64,000 bases of DNA, taken from the NCBI RefSeq assembly GCF_027532185.1, contig NZ_JAPZSV010000003.1:1-64000 (forward strand), in the 5' to 3' direction. The DNA is from Hylemonella sp. Its GTDB lineage: Bacteria > Pseudomonadota > Gammaproteobacteria > Burkholderiales > Burkholderiaceae_C. Both the position numbers and the translations under genes were made by a program. This document shows positions 46,874 through 64,000 of this stretch, piece by piece (within the stretch, counting starts at the first letter, position 1; every line of letters begins with the position of its first letter). The notes below the pieces were generated by a model. The model was not told the origin of the DNA and made no database searches. It saw nothing but the letters and a program-made list of their open reading frames with translations.

Positions 46874-49756
46874 TTACTTGGTCAGCACGAAGCCCTTGAG
46901 CTTGGCGAAGGCAGCTTCCACCAGGGCCTTCTGCTGGTCCTGGTGCAGGTGGGCATAGCCCACAGCCGGCGAAGCCGAGGCGGCGCGACCGGCGTAGCCC
47001 AGCTTCTGACCCTCGAGCATGTTCTCGTGGATGTTGTGCTGGATGAAGAACCAGGCGCCCTGGTTCTGCGGCTCGTCCTGGCACCACACGATGTCGGTGG
47101 CGTTCGGGTACTTCTTGAGCTCGGCGCCGAAAGCCTTGTGCGGGAAGGGATAGAGCTGCTCGATACGCAGGATGGCGGTGTCGTCCTGGCCCTTCTCCTC
47201 GCGCTTCTTGACCAGGTCGTAATAGACCTTGCCCGAACACGCGATCACGCGCTTGACCTTCTCGGCCTTGAGGTCCTTCTGCTCGCCGATGACGGTCTGG
47301 AACCCACCCTTGGTGAACTCGGACAGCGGCGAGGTGGCGTCCTTGTTGCGCAGCAAGGACTTGGGCGTCATGATGACCAGCGGCTTGCGCAGGTCACGGA
47401 CCTGCTGGCGACGCAGCACATGGAAGATCTGGCTGGCCGTGGTCGGCTGCACGATCTGCATGTTGGTGTCGGCGGCCAGCTGCATGAAGCGCTCCAGACG
47501 TGCGGAGCTGTGCTCAGGGCCCTGGCCTTCGTAGCCATGCGGCAGCATCAGCGTGATGCCGTTGACGCGGCCCCACTTCACCTCACCGGAGGCGATGAAC
47601 TGGTCGATCACCACCTGGGCGCCGTTGGCGAAATCGCCGAACTGCGCTTCCCAGATCACCAGGGTGTTGGGGTCGTTGGAGGCGTAGCCGTATTCGAAGG
47701 CCAGCACGGCCTCTTCGGACAGGATGGAGTCGATGACCGTGAAGGAGGCCTGCCCCTCGCTGACGTTCTGCAGCGGGATGTAGGTGCCCTCGTCCCACTT
47801 CTCGCGGTTCTGGTCATGGATCACGGCATGGCGGTGCGTGAAGGTACCGCGGCCGCAATCCTCACCCGACAGACGCACCGGGTAGCCGCTGGCCACCAGC
47901 GAGGCGAAGGCCATGTGCTCGCCCATGCCCCAGTCCACGGGGATCTCGCCGCGGCCCATGGCTGCGCGGTCGTCCAGCACCTTCTTCACGAGCTGGTGCG
48001 GCGTGACGTTGGCGGGGATGGTGGTGATCTTCTCGGCCAGGCGCTTCCACTCGGCCAGCGGGATGGCAGTCTCGGCGGCGTCGGTCCACTTCTTGTTCAG
48101 AAAGGGCGACCAGTCCACCGCGAACTTGCTCTTGAAGTTGGTCAGCACCGGATCCACCGTGTGCTTGCCTGCGTCCATGGCGGCGCGATAGGTCTTGACC
48201 ATCTCGTCCGGGCCTTCGGCCGTCAGCACGCCCTGGGTGACCAGCTTGTCGCCGTAGAGCTTGCGCGTGCCCGGGTGCTGGGCGATCTTCTTGTACATCA
48301 GCGGCTGGGTCAGGCTCGGGGTGTCCTGCTCGTTGTGGCCCAGCTTGCGGAAGCAGATGATGTCGACCACCACGTCCTTCTTGAACTCCATGCGGAATTC
48401 CAGGGCGAGCTGGGTGGCCAGCACCACGGCTTCGGGATCGTCACCGTTGACGTGCAGCACCGGCGCCTCGATCATCTTGACGATGTCGGTGCAGTACAGC
48501 GTGGAACGCAGGTCGCGCGGATCACTGGTCGTGAAGCCGATCTGGTTGTTGATGATGATGTGCACCGTACCGCCCGTGCTGTAGCCACGGGTCTCGGACA
48601 GGGCCAGGGTTTCCTGGTTCACGCCCTGGCCGGCGAAGGCGGCGTCGCCATGCACCAGCACGGGCAGCACCTGCTTGCCCTCGGGGTCACCGCGGCGGTC
48701 CATGCGGGCACGCACCGAGCCCTCGACCACCGGGTTCACGATCTCCAGGTGCGAGGGGTTGAAGGCCAGCGAGAGGTGGACCGGGCCGCCGAGGGTGGTG
48801 ACGTCGGAGCTGAAGCCCTGGTGGTATTTCACGTCACCGGCCGGCAGATCTTCCGGCGCGGTGTGGTCGAACTCGGCGAACAGGTCCTTGGGCATCTTGC
48901 CCAGGGTGTTGACCAGCACGTTGAGGCGGCCGCGGTGGGCCATGCCGATCACGATCTCCTGCACGCCCTTGGCGCCGGCGAGCTGGATCAGCTCATCCAT
49001 GGCGGCGATGAAACTCTCACCCCCCTCGAGCGAGAAGCGCTTCTGGCCCACGTACTTGGTGTGCAGGTAGCGCTCCAGACCCTCGGCCGCGGTCAGACGG
49101 TCCAGGATCTGCTTCTTCTTCTCGGCCTTGAAGTTGGGGTTGGTGCGGACGCTCTCCAGCTTCTGCTGCCACCAGCGCTTCTGCGCCTGGTCGGTGATGT
49201 ACATGTACTCGGCGCCGATGGTGCCGCAGTAGGTCTCACGCAGGGCGTTGAGCAGCTCGCGCAGCGACATGCTCTCCTTGCCGAAGAAGGTGTTGCTGGT
49301 GTTGAACACCGTCTCCAGGTCGGCATCGGAGAAGCCGTAGAAGGACGGCTCCAGCTCGGGAATATTGGGGCGCTCGGTGCGCTTGAGGGGGTCCAGATCG
49401 GCCCAGCGCTGGCCCACGTTGCGGTAGGCGGCGATCAGCTGCTGGGTCGCCACGCGCTTGCGGCCCATCTCGGAATCGGCACCCGTGGCCATAACCACCT
49501 GGGTCACGCCGGCCTTGGCACGCTCGGCGAAGGCATTGATCACCGGCAGGTGCGGGATATCGCGGGAATTCGTGCCGTCGACCGCGGGCACGTTTTGCAG
49601 CGCGTCGAAGTAATCGCGCCAGTTGTCAGGAACGCTGCCGGGGTTGGCGAGGTAGTTCTCGTACATCTCTTCGACGTACGGAGCATTGCCCCCGAACAGA
49701 TAGGTGTTGTCACGGTACGTCTGGTACACAGACGCCGCGGCCTTGGAATCGCTCAT
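46874..49756 (-). CDS. sucA: 2-oxoglutarate dehydrogenase E1
   Basis: A 960-residue thiamine diphosphate enzyme decarboxylating 2-oxoglutarate in the citric acid cycle. The N-terminal segment [31 protein letters not shown] is typical. Further motifs are [17 protein letters not shown], the TPP site [10 protein letters not shown], and [22 protein letters not shown]. The ATG at 49756 has a GGAGGT Shine-Dalgarno; a start 16 residues earlier is not supported. It is first in sucA-sucB-lpdA-zapE. Confidence 0.96.
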   Translation of the reverse strand: [960 protein letters not shown]

Positions 49757-49860
49757 TGCGCTGACCTCCGTTTCCCTGCAGGAAACTTTGAACTGGTTAA
49801 ACAACCTTCCGCGACACGGCTGGACCGATTGGCGGATGCGACTGTGGCTGGAAGGGCCCA

Positions 49861-49879
49861 GAGGCGGATCAACCGCCTC
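49861..49879. other. short perfect hairpin in the sucA leader
   Basis: GAGGCGG (49861-49867) and CCGCCTC (49873-49879) flank a 5-base loop. It lies between the prpE stop and the sucA start, about 15 bases downstream of the proposed sucA -10. No T-run follows on either strand. Confidence 0.6.
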
Positions 49880-49893
49880 TCAGTACGAGCGAG

Positions 49894-49923
49894 ATTGTGC
49901 CACCGAATTGGATCCGGCGCCAA
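49894..49923 (-). promoter_or_regulatory. candidate sucA promoter
   Basis: On the - strand TTGGCG (complement of 49918-49923) and CACAAT (complement of 49894-49899) are separated by 18 bases, upstream of sucA by about 138 bases. The match is moderate and the long leader contains a hairpin. Confidence 0.35.
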
Positions 49924-49950
49924 TCAACTTATGGTTCCGGGTGCTGATTC

Positions 49951-51846
49951 TTATGAATTCACGAGTTCACGCACCTGCTGCAACGCCGTCGGGTCGTCCA
50001 GCGTGGTGAGGTCACCTGGATCGCGCCCCTCGGCCACGGCCTGCAAGGCACGACGCAACAGCTTGCCGCTGCGGGTCTTGGGCAGCAGGTTGACGAAGAA
50101 CACGCGCGAAGGCCGCGCCACCGCGCCCAGCTGGCTGTCCACCACTTTCATCACCTCGCCTTCGAGCTTGAGGCGGGCGTTGGCGTCGCCCAGCGCACTC
50201 GCGTCACGCGCCACGGCAAAGGCCATGGCCACCTGGCCCTTGAGCTGATCGGCCACGCCCACCACGGCCACCTCGGCAATGTTCGGGTGGCTGGCAATGC
50301 ACTCCTCGATCTCGCGCGTGCCCAGGCGATGGCCGGCCACATTGATCACGTCGTCGGTCCGGCCCAGGATGAAGAAGTAGCCGTCCTGGTCACGGATGCC
50401 CCAGTCAAAGGTGCTGTAGACCAGCTTGCCCGGAATGCTCTTCCAGTAGGTGTTGACGAAGCGCGCATCGTCACGCCACACGGTCTGCATGCAGCCCGGC
50501 GGCAGCGGGCCCTCGATGGCCACGACACCCTTCTGGTCCGGCCCCACGAGCTCTTCACCCGTGCTTTCGTTGATCAGCTTCACGTCGTAGCCATACATGG
50601 GCACGCCCGGGCTGCCGAACTTGCTCTTCGCCTTTTCGATGCCGTTGGCAATCGTCAGGATCGGCCAGCCGGTCTCGGTCTGCCAGTAGTTGTCGATGAT
50701 GGGCACACCCAGCCCCTCGCTGATCCATTGCGCCGTGGGCTCGTCCAGCGGCTCGCCGGCGAGATACAGGGCCTTGAGGCTGGAGATGTCGTATTTCTTG
50801 AGGAAGGCCGGGTCCTGCTTCTTGAGCACCCGCACCGCGGTGGGCGCCGAGAACATGCGCGTGACCTTGTACTTCTCCACCAGCTGCCACCAGATGCCGG
50901 CGTCCGGGCGAATCGGCAGGCCTTCGTACATGATGGTCGCCATGCCCGCGATCAGCGGGCCGTAAATGATGTAGCTGTGCCCCACGACCCAGCCGATGTC
51001 ACTGGTCGAAAAATAGGTCTCGCCGGGCCGCCCCTCGAAGATGTACTTCATGCTCGCGGCCAGCGCAACGGCATAGCCACCGGTGTCGCGCTGCACACCC
51101 TTGGGTTTGCCGGTGGTGCCGCTGGTATAGAGCGTGTAGCTGATGTGGGTCGCGTCGAGCCAGGCGCAGGGCACCTGCGTGGCCAGTTGCTGCTCACGCA
51201 GCGCGCCCCAGAGCTGGTCGCGCCCCGTGGTGAGTTCCATGGGCGCCAGGCCGCGGTCTACCAGCAGCACCGATTGCGGCTTGTGTTTGGAGAGGCGGAT
51301 GGCCTCATCCAGCAGCGGCTTGTAGGCCACCACCTTGCCGCCCCGCGAACCCGCGTCCGCACTCACGATGAGCTTGGGCTCCGCATCCTCGATACGGCTG
51401 GCCAGCGAACCAGAGGCAAAACCGCCGAACACCACCGAGTGGATGGCCCCGATGCGCGCGCAGGCCAGCATGGCAAACGCCGCCTCGGCAATCATGGGCA
51501 TGTAGATCAGCACGCGGTCGCCCTGCCCCACGCCCAGGCCGTGCAACACCGCCGCCATGCGCTGCACCTCGGCGTGCAGCTCGGCAAAGCTGTAGGTCTT
51601 CTCCTGGCCGGTCTCGGTGCTCACATAGATCAGCGCCGGCTGGTTGGCGCGCGCCTTGAGGTGCCGGTCCACCGCGTTATGGCAAAGGTTGGTGGTGCCG
51701 CCCACGAACCAGCGCGCAAAGGGCGGGTTGCTGTAGTCGCAGATCTGCTGCGGTGGCGTCTGCCAGTCGATCAGCTGCGCCTGCTCGGCCCAGAAGGCAT
51801 CACGCTCGGCGATGGAGCGGCGGTGGAACTCGGCATAGGAACTCAT
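49951..51846 (-). CDS. prpE: propionate-CoA ligase PrpE
   Basis: A 631-residue acyl-adenylate-forming enzyme that activates propionate to propionyl-CoA. The start MSSYAEFHRRSIAERDAFWAEQ, the DYSNPPFARWFVGGTTNLCHNAVDRHL segment and the ADAGSRGGKVVAYKPLLDEA segment follow the PrpE pattern rather than acetyl-CoA synthetase. The ATP motif is YTSGTTGKPKG and the acetylatable lysine is in LPKTRSGKLLRR. GAGGAG lies upstream of the ATG. The methylcitrate cycle genes prpBCD are not in this window. A 14-base palindrome lies 36 bases before the start. Confidence 0.9.
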   Translation of the reverse strand: MSSYAEFHRRSIAERDAFWAEQAQLIDWQTPPQQICDYSNPPFARWFVGGTTNLCHNAVDRHLKARANQPALIYVSTETGQEKTYSFAELHAEVQRMAAVLHGLGVGQGDRVLIYMPMIAEAAFAMLACARIGAIHSVVFGGFASGSLASRIEDAEPKLIVSADAGSRGGKVVAYKPLLDEAIRLSKHKPQSVLLVDRGLAPMELTTGRDQLWGALREQQLATQVPCAWLDATHISYTLYTSGTTGKPKGVQRDTGGYAVALAASMKYIFEGRPGETYFSTSDIGWVVGHSYIIYGPLIAGMATIMYEGLPIRPDAGIWWQLVEKYKVTRMFSAPTAVRVLKKQDPAFLKKYDISSLKALYLAGEPLDEPTAQWISEGLGVPIIDNYWQTETGWPILTIANGIEKAKSKFGSPGVPMYGYDVKLINESTGEELVGPDQKGVVAIEGPLPPGCMQTVWRDDARFVNTYWKSIPGKLVYSTFDWGIRDQDGYFFILGRTDDVINVAGHRLGTREIEECIASHPNIAEVAVVGVADQLKGQVAMAFAVARDASALGDANARLKLEGEVMKVVDSQLGAVARPSRVFFVNLLPKTRSGKLLRRALQAVAEGRDPGDLTTLDDPTALQQVRELVNS

Positions 51847-53614: not shown

Positions 53615-53714
53615 GCCGTTCAGCACAGAACTCCCTCAAGTCTTCCGGGCCGCCGTGGAGCCGCGGCAACACACGGGACATCGCGCAGAAGTCCGTGTCT
53701 ACGGCCCAGCAGAT

Positions 53715-54401
53715 TCAGGGGCCTGCGTGGAGCTTGATCGCCTGTGGCTGACTCAGCATCGTTCCACAACGAGCCTGCACAGAGGCCAACCAGGCAGACG
53801 GTACCGCAGCCTCACGCCGCATGTCCATTTGGAGTTCCACAGGCAGTGTCCAGGACGTCCCAGCCACTTCGTACCCGTTGATCCGTCGCGTCAAGGCACC
53901 ACCATCAGCGGACTGCACCACAGAAAATATCTGGACAACAAACCTGTCCACATTCCCGGATGAATGCCATTGCAGGGCATTGCCATGCTGTTGAACGGAG
54001 CGTGGCCGCAAAGCACATTGATCTGCAGACTCAACAATGAAATATGGCCCTTGGGCGTTCAGATCCTGGATGGACATCGTGGGGCAATGACGGCTCACCA
54101 GCACCTTGAATACGGCGGTTACGACGGAAACCGGCGCCACCGGCCGCCACTTGGTTCCCGTTACCACGGTATCGACCGACTCAAGAACTCTCCCTTCAGG
54201 CAGGATCACGGCCACCTGGAGACGGTAACTAGCATTCGGGTCGCCGTTCCAGTGCAATTCGGGTTGTCGGTCTGAGATCTGGCTGCCCCGCCTCGGCGCC
54301 AGCAACTCATACCGTTCGCAGGCGGGCTGCGCCCAGGCCCCGCAAGCCATCAGCAGCCCTAAGCCAGGCAACCACCAACGCGTCAGGTCCACACGCCTCA
54401 T
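53715..54401 (-). CDS. exported protein at the end of the secretion/pilus operon
   Basis: A 228-residue protein with a signal peptide (about 1-25, ending AWAQ). The mature part shows two stretches of alternating strands (SRQPELHWNGDPNASYRLQV-like, then NALQWHSSGNVDRFVVQIF) that look like fibronectin type III or related beta sandwiches, with four cysteines after the signal. I do not recognise a family. Its ATG overlaps the stop of the preceding pseudopilin gene (ATGA), so it belongs to the operon and may be a substrate, tip adhesin or accessory. Its base composition is somewhat less GC-rich than the window average. Confidence 0.7.
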   Translation of the reverse strand: MRRVDLTRWWLPGLGLLMACGAWAQPACERYELLAPRRGSQISDRQPELHWNGDPNASYRLQVAVILPEGRVLESVDTVVTGTKWRPVAPVSVVTAVFKVLVSRHCPTMSIQDLNAQGPYFIVESADQCALRPRSVQQHGNALQWHSSGNVDRFVVQIFSVVQSADGGALTRRINGYEVAGTSWTLPVELQMDMRREAAVPSAWLASVQARCGTMLSQPQAIKLHAGP

Positions 54402-54994
54402 CTGCCCGCTCCAGTCTGACTAGCTGGATGCGACGGTGCTAGCGATACACCCGCCTTTTGCAGGGTCTGCAACTGGGCCATCGGCAAACCGAACACCCAT
54501 TGGGCGTAGCCAGTCGCTTCCTCGAAATGGGCCTGTCTGGCCGGAAATCCCATCTGCTTGACTGGCCGCCCCTCAGCCAGACTGTAGATTCCGATGATGA
54601 AACCCGCGGGGTCACGCACGACGCCCCACTCAGGCTTACCGGTCATTGGATCCGCGTACAGCTGGCGCAGATGCCGTCGCACACCCGGAACCCGCGGGTC
54701 CTTGAGCAACTCCTCCAATGTCCGTGGTCCGCGCGCCATCAAGCTCCCCCCCTGCACGCCGAGGCCAGGTGCCGCGACGGGCACACCTGCATAGCTGTAC
54801 AAGGCACGCTCGAACTCCCCACCCACAAAGAGCAGCGCCTGCTCCGCATGCCTGCGACCTGATTCGGCACCCAGCTGCAAAGCAGCCGAGGCCCCCAATG
54901 CCAACACGGCGATGCTCAGGAGGAGCAGCACATAGGCGAAGCCGCGTGCCGCCGCACGCACATCGCACCTCGCCTGGCGGCTACCACTCCGCAT
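54398..54994 (-). CDS. pseudopilin-like protein lacking Glu+5
   Basis: A 198-residue protein with a basic leader of about 18 residues, then G|FAYVLLLLSIAVLALGASAALQL, a prepilin-type cleavage site and hydrophobic helix. Position +5 after cleavage is Leu, not the usual Glu, a trait of tip pseudopilins such as GspK. The rest is a globular domain. The start is uncertain; ATG 54994 overlaps the previous gene by 14 bases, and upstream ATGs would lengthen the leader. It is coupled to the exported protein gene. Confidence 0.7.
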   Translation of the reverse strand: MRSGSRQARCDVRAAARGFAYVLLLLSIAVLALGASAALQLGAESGRRHAEQALLFVGGEFERALYSYAGVPVAAPGLGVQGGSLMARGPRTLEELLKDPRVPGVRRHLRQLYADPMTGKPEWGVVRDPAGFIIGIYSLAEGRPVKQMGFPARQAHFEEATGYAQWVFGLPMAQLQTLQKAGVSLAPSHPASQTGAGR

Positions 54995-55355
54995 ACGGCC
55001 GTCCATTGCGCCCATTCCCTGGCGCCCCACTGCGTATGTCATAGACGCGCCCCTTGTGGCCACTGGGCACTTCGACGATCTGCCAGGTTGTGTCAGACTC
55101 CGTGAAAGGATCCATCGGCAGCGTCTTGAGGTAGCTCTTCTCCACCAGTTCCTCCAGACTCTCAGGAAAACGCCCCTGGTCGCCATAGAACTTGTCGATG
55201 ACATCACGTACACCGCGAAGGTTGTCGCGAAGCACAGTTTCCTTGGCCACGTCGATGCGATCCACATAGCGCGGAACGACCAGGGTCAGCAGCGTTGCCA
55301 CGATGGCCAGCACCACCAGCAGCTCGATCAGCGTGAAGCCTTGGCCGTGTTTCAT
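54981..55355 (-). CDS. type II secretion-like pseudopilin (GspG/PulG-like), second
   Basis: A 124-residue pseudopilin with a very short leader MKHGQG|FTLIELLVVLAIVATL, Glu at +5, and a C-terminal globular domain containing NLRGVRDVIDKFYGDQGRFPESLEELV and LKTLPMDPFTESDTTWQIV, like the GspG core. A GTG at 55361 overlapping the previous stop (GTGA) is an alternative start. It should be processed by a prepilin peptidase encoded elsewhere. Confidence 0.8.
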   Translation of the reverse strand: MKHGQGFTLIELLVVLAIVATLLTLVVPRYVDRIDVAKETVLRDNLRGVRDVIDKFYGDQGRFPESLEELVEKSYLKTLPMDPFTESDTTWQIVEVPSGHKGRVYDIRSGAPGNGRNGRPYAEW

Positions 55356-55357
55356 GA

Positions 55358-55846
55358 TCACCAGCGCCGCAAGGCCAAGCCGTTCAAGCCCGTCAATGTT
55401 GACAGGCTGTAGACGTCATACACATCGTCCCCTTCGGCCGGATCGTTCGGTTCGCTTGCATAGGAACGTTTGCCCCACGTCTGGGCATCCTCAACCTCTG
55501 GGTCTTCGAAAAAAGGATCCCGGGGAATGCGCCGCAAGAAGTAAAGTCTGCCGCGCTTCGGATCCCGCTGATCGTCCACACCTTCGACCAGCACCTCCAG
55601 GGTCTTGGGATACCCCGTCGCACCTGCATCGCGTGACACCCGGCCTTCGTCGCCCGCTTTCTTGTAGGCATCAATCGCGCTGCGGATCTCAGCCAACGCC
55701 GCCCGCAGCTCTTGCTCCTTGCTCCGTTGCACCTGGATCTGTGCCACCGGCACCACCAGACTGGCCAGCACCGCCAGAATCGCCAGCGTCACAAGCAACT
55801 CCACCAACGTGAAGCCACGCGACTGCGTTCTGCGTGCAACAGACAT
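55358..55846 (-). CDS. type II secretion-like pseudopilin (GspG/PulG-like), first
   Basis: A 162-residue pseudopilin. The leader [11 protein letters not shown] is cut before [22 protein letters not shown], with Glu at +5. The globular part has [21 protein letters not shown], then [11 protein letters not shown] and [26 protein letters not shown], a GspG-like fold with an insert. ATG at 55846 is chosen; upstream in-frame starts at 55849 and beyond lack a Shine-Dalgarno. It lies just downstream of the secretin gene. Confidence 0.8.
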
Positions 55847-55876
55847 CACGAATTCAGAGGGGCAAGTCATACACAC

Positions 55877-58180
55877 TCAGGGCCCGACACCTATCACCAG
55901 AGGCGAGGGCAAAGCCGCGCTCACCGCCTTGCCTCCCTGCGCCACCGGCGCCACCGTCAGTAGCTGCACACGCGCGTCGCCGGCCGCCGCTGTGGCACGC
56001 AGATTCACGGTCGCAACCACCCCGCTGCCTGAGACACCCGCATCACCGGAACGCGCCACGGTCAACACAATCTGACCACTCGGGTCCACCCGGCTGCTGA
56101 AGCTCGTCTGTGCCCCACCCTGCTTAAGGAAATCGCCCTCGACCACCGACACCACCTGCATGCTGCGCGCGTCGAAGCCCACCGCCAGCGGCAGGCTCGT
56201 CAGCGGTTGGCCAGACTGCATGGTCAGCTGCACCGAGAACACATCACCGACCTTCACTTTGTCTGGCCCCTGCCAAGTCAGGGTCGTCGGGGCCTGCACT
56301 CCGCTTGCGTCGCCGCTGCTCTGGGAGGCCGCCGTGGCCGCTCCGTTGACGGTCTTGGCTACGCCCTCGGTCGTCGCGCCGCCGCCAGCGGCTGCCGACT
56401 TGGCGCCCCCATCCGGACTGCCCCAGCTGAACCCACTGAGGCTGCTTTCGGTCCCCGATTCGAATTCCATATTGGAAGTCCCCGGGCGCGTCAGGTTGCG
56501 CAGGATGCGCGGCGTGATCGACAGCACGATCTCGGTCTTGGACGCATCGTCACGCTGCTGGCCAAAGAGGCGCCCCAGCACCGGCGCATCACCCAAGCCC
56601 GGCACCTTGTTGCCCGTCTGCCGGTCCTCGCTGTTGATCAGCCCCGCCAGCACTTGGTTCTCGCCGTCCTTGAGGCGCAGGATGGTCTGCGCCGTGCGCG
56701 TGCCAATCTGGTAGGCCAGTGACCCCGACTTGGTCTGGATCTGGTTGGTCACGCTGCTCACCTCGAGTGCGATCTTGATGGCCACCTCACCCTCAATCGA
56801 AATCGTCGGCTCCACATCCAGCTTGAGACCCACGTCCACATAGTTCACCGATTCGGCGACGAAGCCCGTGGCGGTTGACGTGGATGTGATGTTAGGCACC
56901 CGCTCGCCAATCAGGATCTTGGCCTTTTCCCGGTTGCGCACGCGTATGCGCGGGTTGGCCAGGATGTTCGTGTCCGAGTCCACCTTCTTGGCGTTGATGG
57001 TGGCCGGCCCGATGGTGGCCCCCAGCGTTTCCGAGTTCAGCCCCCGCAGGTCCGCCACCGACAACGCACCCGTCGACGCTGCCAAGGGACTCAGGCTGAT
57101 CTGCTCCGGCCAGCGGATGCCCAGATCCAGCAAGCGCGTGCGCTTGACCTCGAGGATCTCCACCTCGAGCATCACCTCGGACTCGGCCACATCGTGCATC
57201 GCAACCAGCCGAGACGCCATGCGGATTGCCTCGGGGGTATCGCGCAGGATCAGCAGGTTCAGCTTCTCGTCCACCACCACGTCGCGCGACTTGAGGATGG
57301 TCTTGAGCGTGCTCGCCACCACCTTGGCCTCCGCATTACCCAGATAGTAGGCCTTCACCGTCAGAGACTGGTAATCCTTCTGCTTGGCCTGCGTATTGGG
57401 ATAGATCAGCACCGTGTTCGCATCCAGCACCCGCTGCTCCAGCTGGTTGGTCAGCAAGGTCAGGTTGACGGCGGCCTCGATGGTGGAATTCTTCAGAAAG
57501 ATAGACGTCTTCTGGTCCGAGCGCACATCCTTGTCGAACAGAAAGTTCAGGCCTGACGTCCGCGAGATCACCTCGAACACCGACTTGAGCGGTGTGTCCT
57601 TGAACTCGATGGTGATGGGCTTGCGATAGGCCTCCGCCAGCAAGGCGGCCCCCGTCTTTTTTTGTTGACCTGCCTCCTCCAGACCTTGCAGCAGGGCCCG
57701 CGCCTTGCGGTGCTGGGGGTCTTCCGCCAGCACCATGCGCACCCAGTTCTCCGCCTCCTTGTCCTCCTTGCGGTCCAGGGACTGCTGCGCCGAGCTCAGC
57801 CACTTCGCATGGCGCTGCGCCGCCGCTATGGCATTGAGCCCCTCCTGGGCCCGCGGGCTACCCGGCTGCCAGGTCATGGCGCGCTGGAAGGCCGCACGCG
57901 CATCGTCGTACCGCTCCTCGTCCAGCGCCTTGCGCCCTGCTGCGAGCGCCGCCGATACAAGCGCCTCACGCGTCTGCAGAACGGCGATGCGGTATTGCGC
58001 CGAATCCGCGTCGCGCCGGCTCGCGTCCTCGAAGCGTTCCAGCGCCTCCTCGGCGCGCCCCTCGCGCGCCAGCTCCTGCCCTTCGCGGTAGGCGCGCTCG
58101 CTGGCACAACCCGCCAACATGAGCACAACCAGCCCCAGCAGCAGGTACTGCCGGGTACGCCCCGGCCTCATCCACATCAT
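55877..58180 (-). CDS. lipoprotein secretin with TPR-like N-terminus and C-terminal cohesin domain
   Basis: A 767-residue outer membrane secretin (GspD/PilQ/MshL-like). Residues 1-24 form a lipoprotein signal with lipobox LAGC (Cys24). Residues about 28-170 are TPR-like helices. N0/STN is at about 188-260 (ITIEFKDTPLKSVFEVI), an N1-type domain at about 270-335, and the secretin domain at about 340-562 ending in TEIVLSITPRILRN. A Ser/Gly/Ala linker (570-632) follows, then a cohesin-like beta domain (about 633-765). Start ATG 58180 overlaps the previous stop (ATGA). The lipid anchor may replace a pilotin. The TPR and cohesin modules are unlike classical GspD. Confidence 0.85.
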   Translation of the reverse strand: MMWMRPGRTRQYLLLGLVVLMLAGCASERAYREGQELAREGRAEEALERFEDASRRDADSAQYRIAVLQTREALVSAALAAGRKALDEERYDDARAAFQRAMTWQPGSPRAQEGLNAIAAAQRHAKWLSSAQQSLDRKEDKEAENWVRMVLAEDPQHRKARALLQGLEEAGQQKKTGAALLAEAYRKPITIEFKDTPLKSVFEVISRTSGLNFLFDKDVRSDQKTSIFLKNSTIEAAVNLTLLTNQLEQRVLDANTVLIYPNTQAKQKDYQSLTVKAYYLGNAEAKVVASTLKTILKSRDVVVDEKLNLLILRDTPEAIRMASRLVAMHDVAESEVMLEVEILEVKRTRLLDLGIRWPEQISLSPLAASTGALSVADLRGLNSETLGATIGPATINAKKVDSDTNILANPRIRVRNREKAKILIGERVPNITSTSTATGFVAESVNYVDVGLKLDVEPTISIEGEVAIKIALEVSSVTNQIQTKSGSLAYQIGTRTAQTILRLKDGENQVLAGLINSEDRQTGNKVPGLGDAPVLGRLFGQQRDDASKTEIVLSITPRILRNLTRPGTSNMEFESGTESSLSGFSWGSPDGGAKSAAAGGGATTEGVAKTVNGAATAASQSSGDASGVQAPTTLTWQGPDKVKVGDVFSVQLTMQSGQPLTSLPLAVGFDARSMQVVSVVEGDFLKQGGAQTSFSSRVDPSGQIVLTVARSGDAGVSGSGVVATVNLRATAAAGDARVQLLTVAPVAQGGKAVSAALPSPLVIGVGP

Positions 58181-58707
58181 CGCGTCTCTCCAATCGACAG
58201 GTTCTGGGACAGGCCCAGCGGCAAATACATCAATTCCATCTGGGGTGGCTTGATTGAATCCACACGGTACTGGCCGTCCAGCATCTGGCCTTCGCGAACG
58301 ACAAACGTCTTCTCGCCCTGCCCTAGGTACACCTCCCATTGACCGCCCTCCAGCTTCTTGCCCAAGTAGACGAAGGACAGCGGCGGCGCCGAGGGTGCGA
58401 CCACGGGCACCACGACCGGCTGGGGCTTGGGTGCCGGCGGCGCCCAGCTGCGCTGACTGAAAAGATCCCGCACCGGCGCGCGCTCCCCGGCGCGCACAAG
58501 CTGATCGCGCGGCACCAGCACCTGCACGCTCGCCCCCCCTTGTACCGGCGAAGCCACCGGTGCCGCCACAGCGGGCTGCACTCTGGGGGCCACCAAGGTC
58601 ACTGGACTGTCAGCGGGCCTCTTGTCGCCAAACACTGCCAACAGAAACGACCCCAACAGTAAGGGCCCCAGGATCCACCAGCGCTTATTCTGTCCTCGCG
58701 TCGCCAT
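58177..58707 (-). CDS. PilP/GspC-like inner membrane alignment protein
   Basis: A 176-residue protein with one membrane span (about 11-27, WWILGPLLLGSFLLAVF), a Pro/Val/Ala-rich linker, and a C-terminal small beta domain (FVYLGKKLEGGQWEVYLGQGEKTFVVREGQMLDGQYRV), the size and pattern of PilP/GspC homology regions that contact the secretin. GGGGGAG precedes the ATG. The ATG overlaps the previous stop (TGATG), and the secretin gene follows with an ATGA overlap, as for pilP-pilQ in type IV pilus operons. Confidence 0.72.
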   Translation of the reverse strand: MATRGQNKRWWILGPLLLGSFLLAVFGDKRPADSPVTLVAPRVQPAVAAPVASPVQGGASVQVLVPRDQLVRAGERAPVRDLFSQRSWAPPAPKPQPVVVPVVAPSAPPLSFVYLGKKLEGGQWEVYLGQGEKTFVVREGQMLDGQYRVDSIKPPQMELMYLPLGLSQNLSIGETR

Positions 58708-59300
58708 CAAGTGCTCCCCCGAGTGGACTTGGCCGGGTTGGTCCAGATGGACAGGCGCAGACGTATCTCGCCCTGGCGCTGCCCCACGGACTCCCGCTTG
58801 AGCAGCATCTGGTCCACGCTGACGCCAGGAAACTCCAGCAACACGGTCTCCACAAACTCTCGCACCTGCGGATACGCCGCCCGCAAGGGCAGCGTCAGCT
58901 GCAAACGTCGCAAGCCACCCAGGCCCTCGCCCGTGGCTTGGAAGTCCGTCTCTGTTAGCGCCAGGCCCTTGCTTTGCGCAATCCGTCCCAGCCGTCGCAA
59001 CACCTCGCTGACCTCCTGCTCAGACAACACCACGCGGTCCAGCTCAGCCACCAGCGCCAAGTCCTGTTGCCCGGCCCGTTCCGAAGGGCTCACCGTGCGC
59101 ACGGCCTGCCCGGACTGAAGGGCCTGCAACTCTGCCTGGGCCTGCGCCAGCTGCTTTGCACCGCCCGTCAACACAGCCAACCAGAGCACCAGTGCCGCCA
59201 GCAGCAATGCCAGCACGCTCAGCCAGATCGCGCCGTGACGCCACAGCAGGATCTCCAGCCGCAGGCGCCAGTGCCCCGCGTTCATCCAGGCCGGCATCAT
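58707..59300 (-). CDS. PilO-like alignment subcomplex protein
   Basis: A 197-residue bitopic protein with a cytoplasmic N-terminus, a membrane span at about 26-46, a coiled coil (about 47-90), and a periplasmic ferredoxin-like domain (LQLTLPLRAAYPQVREFVETVLLEFPGVSVDQMLLKR) as in PilO/GspM. The start overlaps the previous stop (ATGA). Identification is by layout and the ferredoxin-like pattern, not strong sequence motifs. Confidence 0.72.
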   Translation of the reverse strand: MMPAWMNAGHWRLRLEILLWRHGAIWLSVLALLLAALVLWLAVLTGGAKQLAQAQAELQALQSGQAVRTVSPSERAGQQDLALVAELDRVVLSEQEVSEVLRRLGRIAQSKGLALTETDFQATGEGLGGLRRLQLTLPLRAAYPQVREFVETVLLEFPGVSVDQMLLKRESVGQRQGEIRLRLSIWTNPAKSTRGST

Positions 59301-59938
59301 CGCGCCCCCTCCTGCTGGTTCGAGGCCATCGACGCTTGCCGTGAAGGCAGCAGCACCAACTCGAAGGTCAGGCGCATGGGCCGGTTCGCGTCCTGGCCAT
59401 TGGTCTCATGCTTGTTGTAATTCAGGCGGCCCAGCACCCCCTGGCCCTGCAGGGCGGCGGCGTACTGCAACAAGGTGTCGAGCGATTTCGCTTCAGCCTG
59501 CAGCCGCACCGTTCCCCGCTGCCCATCCGGCTCCACACTGACCAGGGCCACCTGCGGCGGCGTGGAGCGCTCCAATTGTTCGAACAGCTCCTGCCAGGGA
59601 ATGTTGAGCTGTCGCGCTACCGCCAGCAGTCCCTGCCGCTTGTCTGCGGTCAGGGCCTGCCCCGGCACCAACCCTGCGTCACGTCGTACAGCGGTGGATG
59701 CGCGTGCCGCCGCCGGCCTCGCGGGCGTGACACGCAGCGCCTGCACCTGGGTTTGCACCGCCTCCATAGCCTGCCTCTGCTGCCAAGCCACCCAGCCACC
59801 CCAGGCCAAAGCTGCCAGCGCCACACCAGCCAGCGCCAGTGTGACGACTTTTGCACGCACCCGGCTCTGCCGGCCCCACAGCGTCCAGCGCGGCGCGGTC
59901 TCCCAGTGAAACATCGCCTTAGAAGGTTCAAGCCGCAT
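59297..59938 (-). CDS. PilN-like alignment subcomplex protein
   Basis: A 213-residue bitopic protein with a short cytoplasmic N-terminus, a membrane span at about 31-50, a helical stretch, and a periplasmic beta-alpha domain (VALVSVEPDGQRGTVRLQAEAKSLDTLLQYAAAL), typical of PilN. AAGGGG precedes ATG 59938 at 7 bases. It overlaps the previous gene by 11 bases. In type IV pili PilM binds the PilN N-terminus; the preceding protein is a possible PilM equivalent. Confidence 0.72.
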   Translation of the reverse strand: MRLEPSKAMFHWETAPRWTLWGRQSRVRAKVVTLALAGVALAALAWGGWVAWQQRQAMEAVQTQVQALRVTPARPAAARASTAVRRDAGLVPGQALTADKRQGLLAVARQLNIPWQELFEQLERSTPPQVALVSVEPDGQRGTVRLQAEAKSLDTLLQYAAALQGQGVLGRLNYNKHETNGQDANRPMRLTFELVLLPSRQASMASNQQEGAR

Positions 59939-60785
59939 GCCGGGCCCCTTCCAGGCACTGTCGAACACACCAGGCCGCCTGCACCGCCTCCGGGGCGTCC
60001 AGCGGCACGGCTGGCTGTGCACCTGCCGGGCGCCAGGGCAAGGTCTTCAACGATGCATGCCCTGCAGCCTTGTCACCACCCTCGCACCATGCCAGCCAAT
60101 GCAAGTCTTCCTGCCTGCCGTCCACACGCAACATCTCACGTCGCCCTTCCTGTACAGCCAGAAGCTCCAAGGATTCCAGGGTACTGGCTGCCGGGCAACG
60201 CACGCTGCGCAAAGACACCATGCGCCCGGCCTCACGCCGCTGCACATACAGACGCTGCGCCACGGCCACGGCCAGCCAGCCCGTCTGCGGCCACTGGGTC
60301 TGCCCCTGTTGTTGCGCCAGCAGCAAAGGCGTGTGCAGCGCCATCTGGCCCCAGCGCGCCCGCATGGCCGCCCAGACCGACTCCCACACGGACGGCACCG
60401 CGGTGCACAGAAACGCGCCCTCGGCCTGCCAATCACCCGTCACCATCCAGCCGCCTGACGGGCCGGGGCCCCAGAGCTGTTGGGCTCTGGCCGAAGCCAC
60501 CGCATGCAACTCGGACAAGGAAGCCGTCTGGGCCGGCACACTTTGCACCCAATGCTGGGCCAGGCTGGGCGCCAGGCACACCTGCGCCGGCTGCTGCGCG
60601 GCACTCAGCTGCGGCGCCTGGTTCAGCACCCATTCCCGCAAGGCGGTCGGTCCATCCACATCTTCTGGCCAGTCCCAGCTCTGCCAGTCCGTCGCCTCCG
60701 GCGCCAGCCAAGCCACGCCCTGCGCGGATACGCCCAGCACCAGCGGCAGGGTCTGTTCTTTGGGCTTACTGCGCCAGCGTGACAC
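59928..60785 (-). CDS. possible PilM/GspL-like cytoplasmic scaffold protein
   Basis: A 285-residue soluble protein without signal or membrane span. It starts (GTG 60785) 20 bases before the end of gspE. The early PLVLGVSAQGVAWL segment is reminiscent of the first strand of actin-like PilM/MshI/GspL domains, but the phosphate-binding glycines are not clearly conserved. The position just before PilN-, PilO- and PilP-like genes supports a PilM/GspL role; I rate this as inference. Confidence 0.5.
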   Translation of the reverse strand: MSRWRSKPKEQTLPLVLGVSAQGVAWLAPEATDWQSWDWPEDVDGPTALREWVLNQAPQLSAAQQPAQVCLAPSLAQHWVQSVPAQTASLSELHAVASARAQQLWGPGPSGGWMVTGDWQAEGAFLCTAVPSVWESVWAAMRARWGQMALHTPLLLAQQQGQTQWPQTGWLAVAVAQRLYVQRREAGRMVSLRSVRCPAASTLESLELLAVQEGRREMLRVDGRQEDLHWLAWCEGGDKAAGHASLKTLPWRPAGAQPAVPLDAPEAVQAAWCVRQCLEGARHAA

Positions 60786-62451
60786 GTCGCACCTCCTCCA
60801 GCGTGGTCGCGCCCTCGCGCACCAGGTTCAGCGCCGCCTCCAGCAACGTGCGTGTGCCGCGCTGCCGTGCGGCTTCCTTGATCTGGCGCACCGGCAAGCG
60901 CTGGATGATCATCTCGCGCAGCTCGTCGTCGAGCAGCAGAAACTCCGCAATCGCGCGCCGCCCCCGGAAGCCCGTGCCGCGGCAGTCGCCGCAACCCGCG
61001 CCCTTCATGAACTTCGCCTCCGTCCACTGCCTGGGGTCCAGGCCCAGCTTCTCGAACTCCAGCGCCTCGGGCTGGTAGGGCTGGCGGCAATGCGTGCAGT
61101 TCACCCGCACCAGACGCTGCGCCCAGATGCCGTTGAGCGCCGACACCAGGGTGTAGGGGTCCAGGCCCATGTGCGTGAAACGGCCGAACACGTCGAACAC
61201 ATTGTTCGCGTGCACCGTGGTCAGCACCAGGTGGCCGGTCAGGGCCGACTGCACGGCGATCTCCGCCGTCTCGCGGTCGCGGATCTCGCCCACCATGATC
61301 TTGTCCGGGTCGTGCCGCAAGATCGAGCGCAGGCCCCGCGCAAAGGTCAGTCCTTTTTTCTCGTTCACGGGGATCTGCAGCACCCCGGGCAGCTGGTATT
61401 CCACCGGATCTTCGATGGTGATGATCTTGTCGCGCCCGGTGTACGTCTCGGCCAGCGCCGCATAGAGCGTGGTGGTCTTGCCCGAGCCCGTGGGGCCCGT
61501 CACCAGCAGCATGCCGTAGGCGGCCTCGGTCAGTGTGCGCATGGTCTTGAGCGCCACGGCATCAAAACCCAGGGCCTCCAGGCTCAGCTTGCCGTGCGCC
61601 TCGATCATGGCCTGTTTATCCAGGATCCGCACCACCGCGTCTTCGCCATGGATGCTGGGCATGATGGATACGCGCAGGTCAATCAGCCGCCCCTGGGCCC
61701 GCACCTGGAAGCTGCCGTCCTGCGGCACGCGCCGCTCGGCAATATCCAGCTCCGCCAGCACCTTGAGCCGCGAGATGGTCTGCTCCGCTACGCTGCGGTC
61801 CTGGATCTCCGTCACATCGTCCAGCACCCCGTCGATGCGGTAGCGCACCGCCAGCCCGACGGGTGTGGATTCCAGGTGCACGTCACTGGCCCCGGCGCGC
61901 AGCGCGTCGTAGAGCGTAGAGTTCACCAGCCTCACCGCCGGACTCGCCGCATCCGTGGCGCTCACCAGGGACAGCACCTCGATGCCCTGCTCGGCATCCG
62001 TCGAATCCGAGCGCATGGACTCCAGGCTGTCCACCGCGCGCAGCGAAGCCTCCTGCTGCGTCAGATAGGCGTGCAAGTCTTCCGGCGTGCACAGCACCTG
62101 CTGCACCGCCTGGCCCGCCGCCTGCTCCAGCTGGGCCAGCACGTCCCCATCAAAAGGGTCGGTCAGCGCCGCCACCCACACACCCGAGTCGTCGGCACTC
62201 TGCAGCAACACGGCGCGCTGGGACTGCGCCCGAGCCATGGGCCAGAGGTCCAGCCGGGCGGTCTGCGGGTTCAGCGCCAGGTTGTCCCAGAAAGGCAGAT
62301 CGAACTGGGTCGCCAGCCAAGTGGCTGCCTCGCGCGGGTGCATCTGATGCGCCTCGGCCAACACGTCCACCAGCGGCCGCCCGCTGGCCTGGGCACGGGC
62401 ACGCAGGCCCTGCAGGCCTTCCAGCGTCGGTACCGCCACCGTGTCGCTCAT
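60766..62451 (-). CDS. type II secretion/pilus assembly ATPase GspE-like
   Basis: A 561-residue cytoplasmic hexameric ATPase powering pseudopilus or pilus assembly. The N-terminal MshEN/GspE-II domain is at about 1-130. Walker A GPTGSGKTTTLY, the Asp box IEDPVEYQL, the Walker B region DPDKIMVGEIRD, and the His box LTTVHANNVFDVFGR are present. A zinc site is formed by CTHC and CGDC pairs. Its start overlaps the gspF stop by one base (TGATG). Confidence 0.9.
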   Translation of the reverse strand: MSDTVAVPTLEGLQGLRARAQASGRPLVDVLAEAHQMHPREAATWLATQFDLPFWDNLALNPQTARLDLWPMARAQSQRAVLLQSADDSGVWVAALTDPFDGDVLAQLEQAAGQAVQQVLCTPEDLHAYLTQQEASLRAVDSLESMRSDSTDAEQGIEVLSLVSATDAASPAVRLVNSTLYDALRAGASDVHLESTPVGLAVRYRIDGVLDDVTEIQDRSVAEQTISRLKVLAELDIAERRVPQDGSFQVRAQGRLIDLRVSIMPSIHGEDAVVRILDKQAMIEAHGKLSLEALGFDAVALKTMRTLTEAAYGMLLVTGPTGSGKTTTLYAALAETYTGRDKIITIEDPVEYQLPGVLQIPVNEKKGLTFARGLRSILRHDPDKIMVGEIRDRETAEIAVQSALTGHLVLTTVHANNVFDVFGRFTHMGLDPYTLVSALNGIWAQRLVRVNCTHCRQPYQPEALEFEKLGLDPRQWTEAKFMKGAGCGDCRGTGFRGRRAIAEFLLLDDELREMIIQRLPVRQIKEAARQRGTRTLLEAALNLVREGATTLEEVRRVTLAQ

Positions 62452-63638
62452 CAGATGCTCCCCGCCAGTTCGAAGATGGGCATGTAGAGCAGCACCACAA
62501 TCACCCCGATCACCAGGCCGATGGCCGCCATCAGGATGGGCTCAAAAGCCTTGCTGAACTGCTCGATCCAGCGCGTGGTCTCGGTATCGTAAAAAGCCGC
62601 CGTGCGCCCCAGCATCACCCCCATCTGCCCCGTCTGCTCACCCACACGCAGCATGCGCAACGACACCGGCGTGGCCAGGCCCTGGCGCTCCAGGGCGCTT
62701 GAAAGACTCTCGCCTTGGCCCACGGCCCCACGCGCAGCCTGCAGGCGGCCCACCGTGTCCTGCGGCAGCACGGCCTCACAGAGCTGCATGGCTCGCATGA
62801 TGGGAATGCCGCCGTCCAGCAGCATGCCAAGCGTGAGGTACAGACGCGTGAGCGTCAGGATTTCCAGGCGCTGCCGCACACCGGGCAGCACCCGCAGCAA
62901 GCGGCTCCACTGGCCCGTGCGCAGCAGTCGGCGGCCGCCCCAGACCAGCGCCACCACGGCCGCAGCCAGACCGGCCACCAGCCAGAGCGCATAGTTGGCC
63001 GCAAACTGCCCCCAGGCCAGCAGGGCTTGCGAGGCCCAGGGCAGGCTACGCCCGCCGCCCTGGTAGACCGAGGCAAAACGCGGCACCACATAGCCCAGCA
63101 GAAACAGTGCCACGGCCAGGCCCACGGTGAAGAGGATGGAGGGGTAGATGGCGGCACTGACCACCTTGTGTTTCAGAGTGCGCAGCCGCGTCTCGTAAGA
63201 CACATAACGCTCCAGCGCCTTGGGCAAATCACTGGTGCCTTCGGCCGCCTGCACCACACCCACAAAGAGCGGCGGAAACACATCACCCTGTTGCGCCAGC
63301 GCCTGGGAAAGGCGTTGCCCTTGTTGCAAGGCATCGCGCAGACGCTGCAGCACGGCCTTCAGATGCGGCTGGCCAGCGCGCTCCAGCAAGGCGTCCAGTG
63401 CCTCCACCACGCTCAGGCCCGCACTGACCAGGGCCAGCAGTTCCTGGGCGAACAAGAGCAGGTCAAAGGGTTTGCTGCGCCGCGCCGGCAGCCAGGCCTT
63501 GCCCGTTGCCGCCTTGAGCGACAGCAGCGCCAGGCCGCGGGATTGAATCAGGGTTTGCGCATGCCCCGCATCCAGGGCCTCCAGTTCAAAGACCTCGATC
63601 TGCTGTTGCGCACTCAGCGCCCGCACCTCGAACTTCAT
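62451..63638 (-). CDS. inner membrane platform protein GspF-like
   Basis: A 395-residue polytopic protein of the GspF/PilC family, the inner membrane platform. Two repeated cytoplasmic helical domains contain FAQELLALVSAGLSVVEALDAL and LYLTLGMLLDGGIPIMRAMQLC, with membrane spans near 170-190, 220-240 and 370-390. gspG ends 21 bases upstream and gspE starts at its stop. Confidence 0.92.
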   Translation of the reverse strand: MKFEVRALSAQQQIEVFELEALDAGHAQTLIQSRGLALLSLKAATGKAWLPARRSKPFDLLLFAQELLALVSAGLSVVEALDALLERAGQPHLKAVLQRLRDALQQGQRLSQALAQQGDVFPPLFVGVVQAAEGTSDLPKALERYVSYETRLRTLKHKVVSAAIYPSILFTVGLAVALFLLGYVVPRFASVYQGGGRSLPWASQALLAWGQFAANYALWLVAGLAAAVVALVWGGRRLLRTGQWSRLLRVLPGVRQRLEILTLTRLYLTLGMLLDGGIPIMRAMQLCEAVLPQDTVGRLQAARGAVGQGESLSSALERQGLATPVSLRMLRVGEQTGQMGVMLGRTAAFYDTETTRWIEQFSKAFEPILMAAIGLVIGVIVVLLYMPIFELAGSI

Positions 63639-63659
63639 GGCGGCGCCCCTCGCGCCCCG

Positions 63660-64000
63660 TCAATGGTTGCTGACGTCGGCCGCATCACCCGTACCTCCGG
63701 GCTGGCCGTCCTTGCCGTAGCTCAGCAGGTCGAAGTCGCCCTTGCTGCCCGGGCTGGTGTAGAGGTAAGGCTTGCCCCAGGGATCGGGCGGCGCGGCCTT
63801 TTCGAGGTAGGGGCCATTCCATTTGGCGGCGCGTGCGCTGTCCGCGGGGCGATTCACCAGGGCATTCAGCCCCTCTTCGGTGCTGGGGTAATTGCCCACG
63901 TCGATGCGATAGGCCCCCAGGGCGCGACTGAAGGCTTCGATCTGGGACTTGGCAACGGCTTGTTCGGATTTTCCGAGTTGGCCGAAGTATTTGGGGCCGA
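63660..64000 (-). CDS. gspG: major pseudopilin GspG, C-terminal part (cut by window end)
   Basis: Partial gene; the start lies beyond base 64000. The visible part begins GPKYFGQLGKSEQAVAKSQIE and continues to the stop at 63660. It contains DVGNYPSTEEGLNALV, GPYLEKAAPPDPWGKPY and YGKDGQPGGTGDAADVSN, the conserved GspG core including the calcium-site loop before the C-terminus. It is a classic GspG, unlike the two divergent pseudopilins encoded at 54981-55846. It is the first visible gene of the operon that runs to 53715. Confidence 0.92.
   Translation of the reverse strand, partial: GPKYFGQLGKSEQAVAKSQIEAFSRALGAYRIDVGNYPSTEEGLNALVNRPADSARAAKWNGPYLEKAAPPDPWGKPYLYTSPGSKGDFDLLSYGKDGQPGGTGDAADVSNH

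Follow-up and report, generated by a model that had tools for sequence, protein, structure and literature searches.

A type II secretion-like machine of a conserved lineage on a movable block with candidate RHS toxin substrates

A 64,000-nucleotide stretch of DNA from Hylemonella sp. (the window; positions 1–64000 of contig NZ_JAPZSV010000003.1, here C11, in a genome of 3.33 Mb) ends in an operon with the gene order G1-F-E-M-N-O-P-D-G2-G3-X-Z (Table 1). This operon encodes a machine that resembles a type II secretion system (T2SS), built from pseudopilins (G1, G2, G3 and X), an inner-membrane platform (F, M, N, O and P), an assembly ATPase (E) and a secretin (D). Judged by the comparisons described below, the machine is a member of a conserved lineage of T2SS-like machines that is monophyletic in an ATPase tree, rather than a local hybrid. 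We consider it probable that the machine works as a complete exporter whose neighbouring genes encode its substrates, in this case an RHS polymorphic toxin. Its novelty lies in its candidate cargo and its mobility, not in its kind.

The initial annotation of the window had described one operon for a machine of mixed T2SS and type IV pilus (T4P) look, with nearly every gene junction overlapped. Profiles and gene coordinates confirm this organization: 9 of the 11 junctions overlap, one is abutting and one has a gap of 21 bases. The annotation also proposed looking beyond position 64000, where the start of gspG (G1) was found 100 bases past the window edge, at contig position 64100. When placement in a standard T2SS or MSHA pilus was checked with hidden Markov models, G1 passed a system cut-off (GspG), and E, F and D fell below every one (Table 1). 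The ATPase has a CxxC...CxxC motif, as read by eye.

Low scores alone are no proof of a new lineage, because the MSH-like parts encoded elsewhere in the host genome also score below cut-off. In a quick ATPase tree of 59 rows the 27 machine ATPases group together (Shimodaira–Hasegawa-like approximate likelihood ratio test support of 100), apart from the nine GspE-type rows and from the PilB, MSH-type and TfpB rows; deep branching in this tree is unsure. The host also encodes, away from the operon, GspE (652 bits), GspD (593 bits), PilB, PilQ and a TfpB ATPase that all exceed their cut-offs, and an 804-aa PilB-like ATPase that scores below them. Conservation extends to the whole gene set. Among 80 named loci, which are the best 80 of at least 585 confirmed stretches and nearly all betaproteobacterial by title (Dyella locus L098 is an exception), the full set of eleven core genes is present in 52, and 51 of these keep the strict order. 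Eight more have M and N fused, and 20 lack at least one gene, many of these being ended by a contig edge. Thus, the mixed look of the machine stands, and the idea of a hybrid assembled locally does not. Relatives of the secretin occur at E 1e-30 in 37 of 120 genomes, host included, three of them in the genus, and a class-wide sample of 274 genomes contains 8, again with the host included, in which a family profile detects the secretin at E 1e-60. No description of this lineage in Betaproteobacteria, or of its link to RHS genes, was found in the titles and abstract starts of the literature matches listed.

Two loci, L073 and L117, have the operon in two modules, either split or permuted (G1-F-E-N-O-P versus D-G2-G3-X, or G1-F-E after X), an arrangement suggestive of two separable units.

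No GspL or GspM of classical type had been recognized in the initial annotation. Counterparts of GspL (M plus N), GspM (O) and GspC (P) are nevertheless all present, as predicted by fold or by remote profile only. M and N are split in 61 of 69 measured loci and form a single protein, as in GspL, in the other 8. The predicted model of one such fusion (L058; mean predicted local distance difference test (pLDDT) score of 63, with a poor linker) has its best fold matches in PilM (E 1.9e-7) and in the cytoplasmic part of EpsL (E 1.6e-6). The profile of O (A6) matches PilO of Myxococcus (3jc8, E 2.9e-8). The model of P (pLDDT 83) has one transmembrane helix and a C-terminal beta domain, and its best matches are PilP (2y4y) and the GspC homology region (3oss; TM-score 0.81 by target), with a probability of 1.00 but weak E-values of about 0.02. 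Sequence profiles of M-N and P gave nothing significant against the PDB. These models support M as a PilM/GspL counterpart and P as a PilP/GspC counterpart, and together with the profiles of N, just below cut-off, and O they agree with the PilM-, PilN-, PilO- and PilP-like parts that had been proposed.

The secretin was expected to be a lipoprotein with TPR and cohesin parts, which is what we observe. Secretin, Secretin_N and Cohesin domains exceed the Pfam cut-offs in the host protein, and STN and TPR fall just below. Across 19 secretins including that of the host, Pfam searches at E 0.01 find STN in 19, TPR_19 in 16 and Cohesin in 10; profiles built in this analysis detect the TPR region in every one of 81 secretins and the cohesin-like tail in 46 of them. 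Residue C25 of the lipobox is nearly invariant across 19 alignment rows, as is characteristic of a liposecretin, and a crude lipobox-like pattern is present in 55 of 81 secretin open reading frames (ORFs) taken from stop to stop. The cohesin profile matches cellulosomal cohesins in the PDB (best E 4.9e-10). HxcQ of Pseudomonas aeruginosa is likewise a secretin that is itself a lipoprotein, and requires no pilotin (Viarre et al. 2009 as cited in an excerpt of PMC3542185). D might be self-piloting in the same manner, although it adds a TPR region and a cohesin domain and occurs in another machine context.

Two ideas on the cohesin domain were considered and set aside. A cohesin–dockerin pairing was rejected, as the host genome has no PF00404 dockerin match at E 0.1 (other dockerin types were not tried). 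The cohesin tail is also more frequent in RHS-positive named loci (14 of 15) than in the others (31 of 65; p 0.001), but we do not claim a cohesin–RHS link because the cohesin changed only four times on the secretin tree and independent pairs are unsupportive.

Crude patterns find Glu+5 in 64 of 76 G2 and 73 of 77 G3 family ORFs, and neither protein reaches an NCBIfam cut-off for GspH, GspI or GspJ. X, present in 77 of 81 loci, has no Pfam match; its motif is readable in 75 of 77 family ORFs, none of which has Glu at +5, so that the description of X as a pseudopilin lacking this residue holds across the family. GspK likewise has no Glu+5. From its sequence, X may be a stand-in at the pseudopilus tip for GspK, which the annotation had listed as missing. 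A single PilD-type peptidase match in the host genome is encoded away from the operon. The last gene, Z, occurs in all genus copies (55–70% identity in L122, L123 and L124) and at 24% identity in L075; it was rejected as a core part since a profile detects it in only 3 of 81 loci.

The machine has in common with the canonical T2SS a GspG major pseudopilin, an ATPase, a platform, a secretin and the GspC-, GspL- and GspM-like roles. It differs in that E, F and D are all below the T2SS cut-offs, whereas GspE and GspD of the host's own T2SS pass them, in its mostly split GspL, in that G2 and G3 reach none of the GspH, GspI and GspJ cut-offs, in its separate ATPase clade and in the TPR region, cohesin domain and lipid anchor of its secretin. 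With the MSHA pilus and type IVa pilus it shares separate PilM-, PilN-, PilO- and PilP-like proteins beside the secretin, but its PilB, PilQ and MshL scores are below cut-off and its ATPase falls in another clade; the host encodes type IVa pilus and MSH-like parts elsewhere in its genome.

The annotation had found no evident substrate for the machine. Candidates are suggested just outside the window, where an RHS protein (C) and other probably exported proteins are encoded upstream of gspG on the same movable block. From their sequences, A and B are probably exported. The PAP2-family protein has relatives of which two match vanadium chloroperoxidase models, only below cut-off.

The 25.3-kb block carries these genes together with the machine. 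In G005 and G020, near relatives that lack the secretin, the sequence corresponding to position 53616 joins that at 78908 or 78907 with only 37 and 42 bases between, and in G016 the block is also absent, with a gap of about 980 bases at the junction. The flanks in these three relatives meet at nearly the same place beside a tRNA-Arg gene, whose 3′ end lies about 8 bases from the block end. The G+C content of the block is 63.8%, compared with 67.1% for window positions 1–53616. In G018 the block resides at another site, the flanking NUDIX gene being a megabase from the machine, and the order A-B-C-machine is kept. Because the block is absent as a unit in relatives and its order is preserved at the G018 site, the machine and its neighbours come or go together. 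No direct repeats of 12 bases or more were found inside either block end region, each searched separately (a repeat common to both ends was not tested for), and reading through ORFs by eye revealed no integrase, no search aimed at integrases having been made.

An RHS gene lies directly upstream of gspG, on the same strand, in all four machine copies of the genus (the host's own, two in G013 and one in G018). Over the parts compared, the cores of these RHS proteins are 87–93% identical, whereas their C-terminal tails are 14–28% identical, which is the pattern of RHS polymorphic toxins. The short ORF that follows each tail also differs, with lengths of 134 aa, up to 216 aa, 111 aa and 54 aa. Frames in which the first M, V or L is no start codon escape the ORF scan, and hence the 216-aa frame of G013 (measured from stop to stop) is unlisted. 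On contig C17 of G013 (L122 and L123), two copies of RHS gene plus machine lie about 63 kb apart and have different RHS tails.

The variable tail and the next small ORF together resemble a toxin–immunity cassette. Because the genus tails and the host's own small ORF match no Pfam family, it is only this pattern that points to toxicity and immunity. A different interpretation is that the machine exports the RHS protein not as a toxin but as an adhesin or a structural protein of the surface, and that its tails reflect ordinary exchange of RHS tips. The long N-terminal Ig-like region with Big_2, TIG and CarboxypepD_reg domains would suit such a protein, as would the failure of the genus tails to match a toxin family. 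We regard this interpretation as unlikely given the core/tail polymorphism with its changing downstream ORF and the HNH and M91 tails at other loci. Of five tails scanned from other machine-adjacent loci, HNH, M91 and DUF6973 account for one each, a fourth shows the RHS shell only and the last matches nothing.

The association of RHS genes with the machine extends to other genomes. Strong RHS matches are present in 14 of 37 secretin-positive and 9 of 83 secretin-negative genomes (n = 120; p 9e-4, uncorrected for relatedness). Genomes with both contain 29 RHS genes, of which 13 are no more than 25 kb from the secretin; these comprise all 7 of the genus and 6 of the 22 from outside it. For example, the operon is followed on its own strand by three RHS genes with signal-like starts in G084 and preceded, again on its own strand, by two RHS genes in G057. 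RHS adjacency requires 13 changes on the secretin tree. In the neighbour survey the YD pattern alone undercounted RHS genes, and loci L051, L056, L064, L068 and L117 were added from phmmer matches or by eye.

As separate observations, RHS matches in G100 (C2:115640-120052) and G058 (C10:45503-50095) fall within open frames about 14,000 codons long; G100 carries its one secretin match on a different contig, and in G058 there is no secretin match at E 1e-30.

Other large genes also accompany the machine. Relatives of B are found near it in L054, L063, L167, L170 and L171, relatives of A in L170 and L171, and relatives of the PAP2-family protein beside it in L075 (Accumulibacter) and L054 (Rubrivivax). 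Of 99 neighbours listed, 42 entered a summary scan, which yielded 9 subtilases and 8 proteins with RHS repeats, 6 were scanned singly and 51 were unscanned, many of them downstream on the other strand; L102 is additional, and the list leaves out L088, L092, L097, L104, L107, L114 and L115, where the large calls resembled wrong-strand ORFs. Single scans identified the L091 neighbour as a subtilase and nuclease domains in the L082 and L102 neighbours, which we take to resemble ExeM. Judged by N-termini, the subtilases belong mostly to Massilia, Duganella and Janthinobacterium loci. Further neighbours include an SpvB/TcdB-type protein (L077), a prenyltransferase together with CarboxypepD_reg (L050) and an Ig-rich protein (L063). 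Signal-peptide-like starts, detected with a home-made pattern, occur in 21 of 33 large upstream neighbours compared with 43 of 162 controls. The controls were all other genes of at least 350 aa at these loci, with downstream neighbours counted among them, and neither group includes plus-strand genes truncated by the start of the locus.

Given these patterns of RHS genes, enzymes and signal-like starts among the neighbours, we consider an exporter whose substrates are encoded locally more plausible than a pilus. A machine that builds a T4P- or MSHA-like surface fibre, with neighbours that are unrelated passengers of the same island, would account for the split PilM/N/O/P-type platform proteins and for the best secretin score being PilQ (163 bits, versus 155 for GspD). 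However, by its cut-off G1 counts as a GspG equivalog, and inspection of the operon by eye showed no PilT-type ATPase. In several genera the neighbours scanned include RHS proteins and large enzymes that look exported, and RHS adjacency has changed repeatedly, as counted above; a fibre is thus quite improbable.

A second alternative accepts export and questions the cargo. The machine could be a general T2SS-like exporter of many enzymes, the RHS protein being merely a co-resident of the island that leaves by another route, such as the canonical T2SS encoded in the host genome. At 65 of the 80 named loci there is no RHS gene in the DNA compared, and subtilases, nucleases and other proteins lie beside some of these RHS-free loci. 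Set against this are the presence or absence of the whole block as a single unit, the recurrence of the A-B-C-machine order at another site and the location inside the block of both RHS matches that the host genome has at E ≤ 1e-10. We judge this alternative to be rather unlikely.

Several points nonetheless weigh against export of a locally encoded RHS toxin by a machine of this kind. The host's canonical T2SS could carry the RHS protein, whose signal peptide was read by eye. RHS genes lie within the DNA compared (up to 10 kb on either side) in only 15 of the 80 named loci, many of which end at contig edges, and RHS genes also occur in the 9 secretin-negative genomes mentioned above. The proximity test takes a rough chance of 2% for each gene and leaves relatedness out of account, and the whole operon was examined in only a minority of the 37 secretin-positive genomes. 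The four genus tails and the host's own small ORF have no Pfam family at E 0.05 (dedicated toxin libraries were not tried), and the ORF after the RHS tail of G018 is only 54 aa. With respect to co-transcription, 201 bases separate the small ORF from gspG, and a simple scan of L006 1500-13200 found no sigma-70-like promoter and a weak terminator-like site inside the small ORF. Finally, the best PilP/GspC fold E-value for P is only 0.016.

If the preferred model of an exporter with locally encoded substrates is correct, Sec would bring the substrate to the periplasm; E, acting through M-N-O and F, would build a short G1 pseudopilus with G2, G3 and X as its cap, and the substrate would exit through D. 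The pseudopilins would be processed by the sole PilD homologue found. The substrates would be the large exported proteins encoded beside the machine, namely the RHS protein, A, B and perhaps the PAP2-family protein. Should the neighbours indeed be the substrates, the locus itself names them.

A more far-reaching proposal is possible but doubtful. The lineage may constitute a separate type IV filament family, mobile and devoted to the export of Sec-dependent RHS polymorphic toxins from Gram-negative bacteria. Its secretin would have its own pilotin (lipid anchor plus TPR) and a cohesin that may hold the substrate, and the machine would travel together with toxin, immunity gene and companions as a single block at tRNA genes.

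The nearest described relative, judged from the literature, is the atypical Pul/Oxp T2SS of Geobacter, and the machine is probably of that kind. The secretin of the Pul/Oxp system presumably has the same domains as D. The title of an article by Mehta et al. from 2006 reportedly names this system an atypical T2SS. According to an excerpt of PMC3543383, its pseudopilins in Geobacter/Pelobacter are PulG, OxpG and TklG, and it is needed for secretion of the multicopper oxidase OmpB; the excerpt mentions neither an RHS cargo nor a tRNA island. T2SS/Sec-dependent polymorphic toxins have a signal peptide, RHS repeats and a variable C-terminal domain, and the table of a 2012 survey, as excerpted, gives no signature neighbourhood genes for this route (PMC3482391, Table 1). 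The present locus differs in that a machine adjoins the toxin-like gene. If the proposed function is correct, the machine becomes a candidate for the export of such Sec-dependent RHS toxins. The lineage also represents one coherent, testable class, common in Betaproteobacteria, that is relevant to 'generic' filament systems, of which 884 remained in a survey of the type IV filament superfamily despite improved models, according to an excerpt (PMC6668835).

Table 1. Positions of the machine genes, neighbouring genes and movable block on contig C11, numbered as in the window up to 64000; bit scores are followed by model cut-offs in brackets where given.
Feature	Position	Strand	Basis or remark
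Operon G1-F-E-M-N-O-P-D-G2-G3-X-Z	64100 down to 53715	-	
G1, GspG-type major pseudopilin	63660..64000 in window (5′ end outside)	-	NCBIfam GspG 171 bits (88.85); T2SSG
F, GspF/PilC inner-membrane platform	62451..63638	-	T2SSF 155 bits; GspF 256 (424), below cut-off
E, assembly ATPase	60766..62451	-	T2SSE 403 bits; GspE 510 (630) and PilB 474 (676), both below cut-off
M, putative PilM/cytoplasmic GspL counterpart, actin-like fold	59928..60785	-	predicted fold of M-N fusion relative L058
N, putative PilN/periplasmic GspL counterpart, one transmembrane segment	59297..59938	-	PilN 21.8 bits, just below cut-off
O, putative PilO/GspM counterpart	58707..59300	-	T2SSM_b above cut-off; profile A6
P, putative PilP/GspC counterpart: transmembrane helix, linker, C-terminal beta domain	58177..58710	-	structure model
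D, lipoprotein secretin: lipobox, TPR-like region, STN, Secretin_N, barrel, C-terminal cohesin-like domain	55877..58180	-	Pfam; family alignment A1; PilQ 163 (284), GspD 155 (351), MshL 106 (250), all below cut-off
G2, pseudopilin with Glu+5	55358..55876	-	N_methyl
G3, pseudopilin with Glu+5	54981..55361	-	N_methyl
X, pseudopilin without Glu+5, possible GspK-like tip	54398..55042	-	exact start uncertain (54994-55042)
Z, exported beta-rich protein	53715..54401	-	description from initial annotation; signal-like start by eye
Small ORF	64302-64706	same as operon	likely ATG at 64673, four bases past RHS stop; transmembrane segments by eye
C, RHS protein, 2618 aa	64678-72534	same as operon	Big_2, TIG, CarboxypepD_reg, DUF6531, RHS repeats
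B, 551 aa, Gly-rich	72703-74358	same as operon	no family
A, 1026 aa	74372-77452	same as operon	one RHS repeat and Qn_am_d_aIII match
PAP2-family protein	77416-78789 (L121 15417-16790)	plus	
25.3-kb block (25,291 bases)	53617 to about 78907; window part 53617..64000		
tRNA-Arg(tct) gene	78915-78991 (L173 2416-2492), outside window		3′ end near block end

Elsewhere in the window, a listed open frame of 1101 aa on the plus strand (46943-50248) has a composition that resembles a GC-rich antisense frame.

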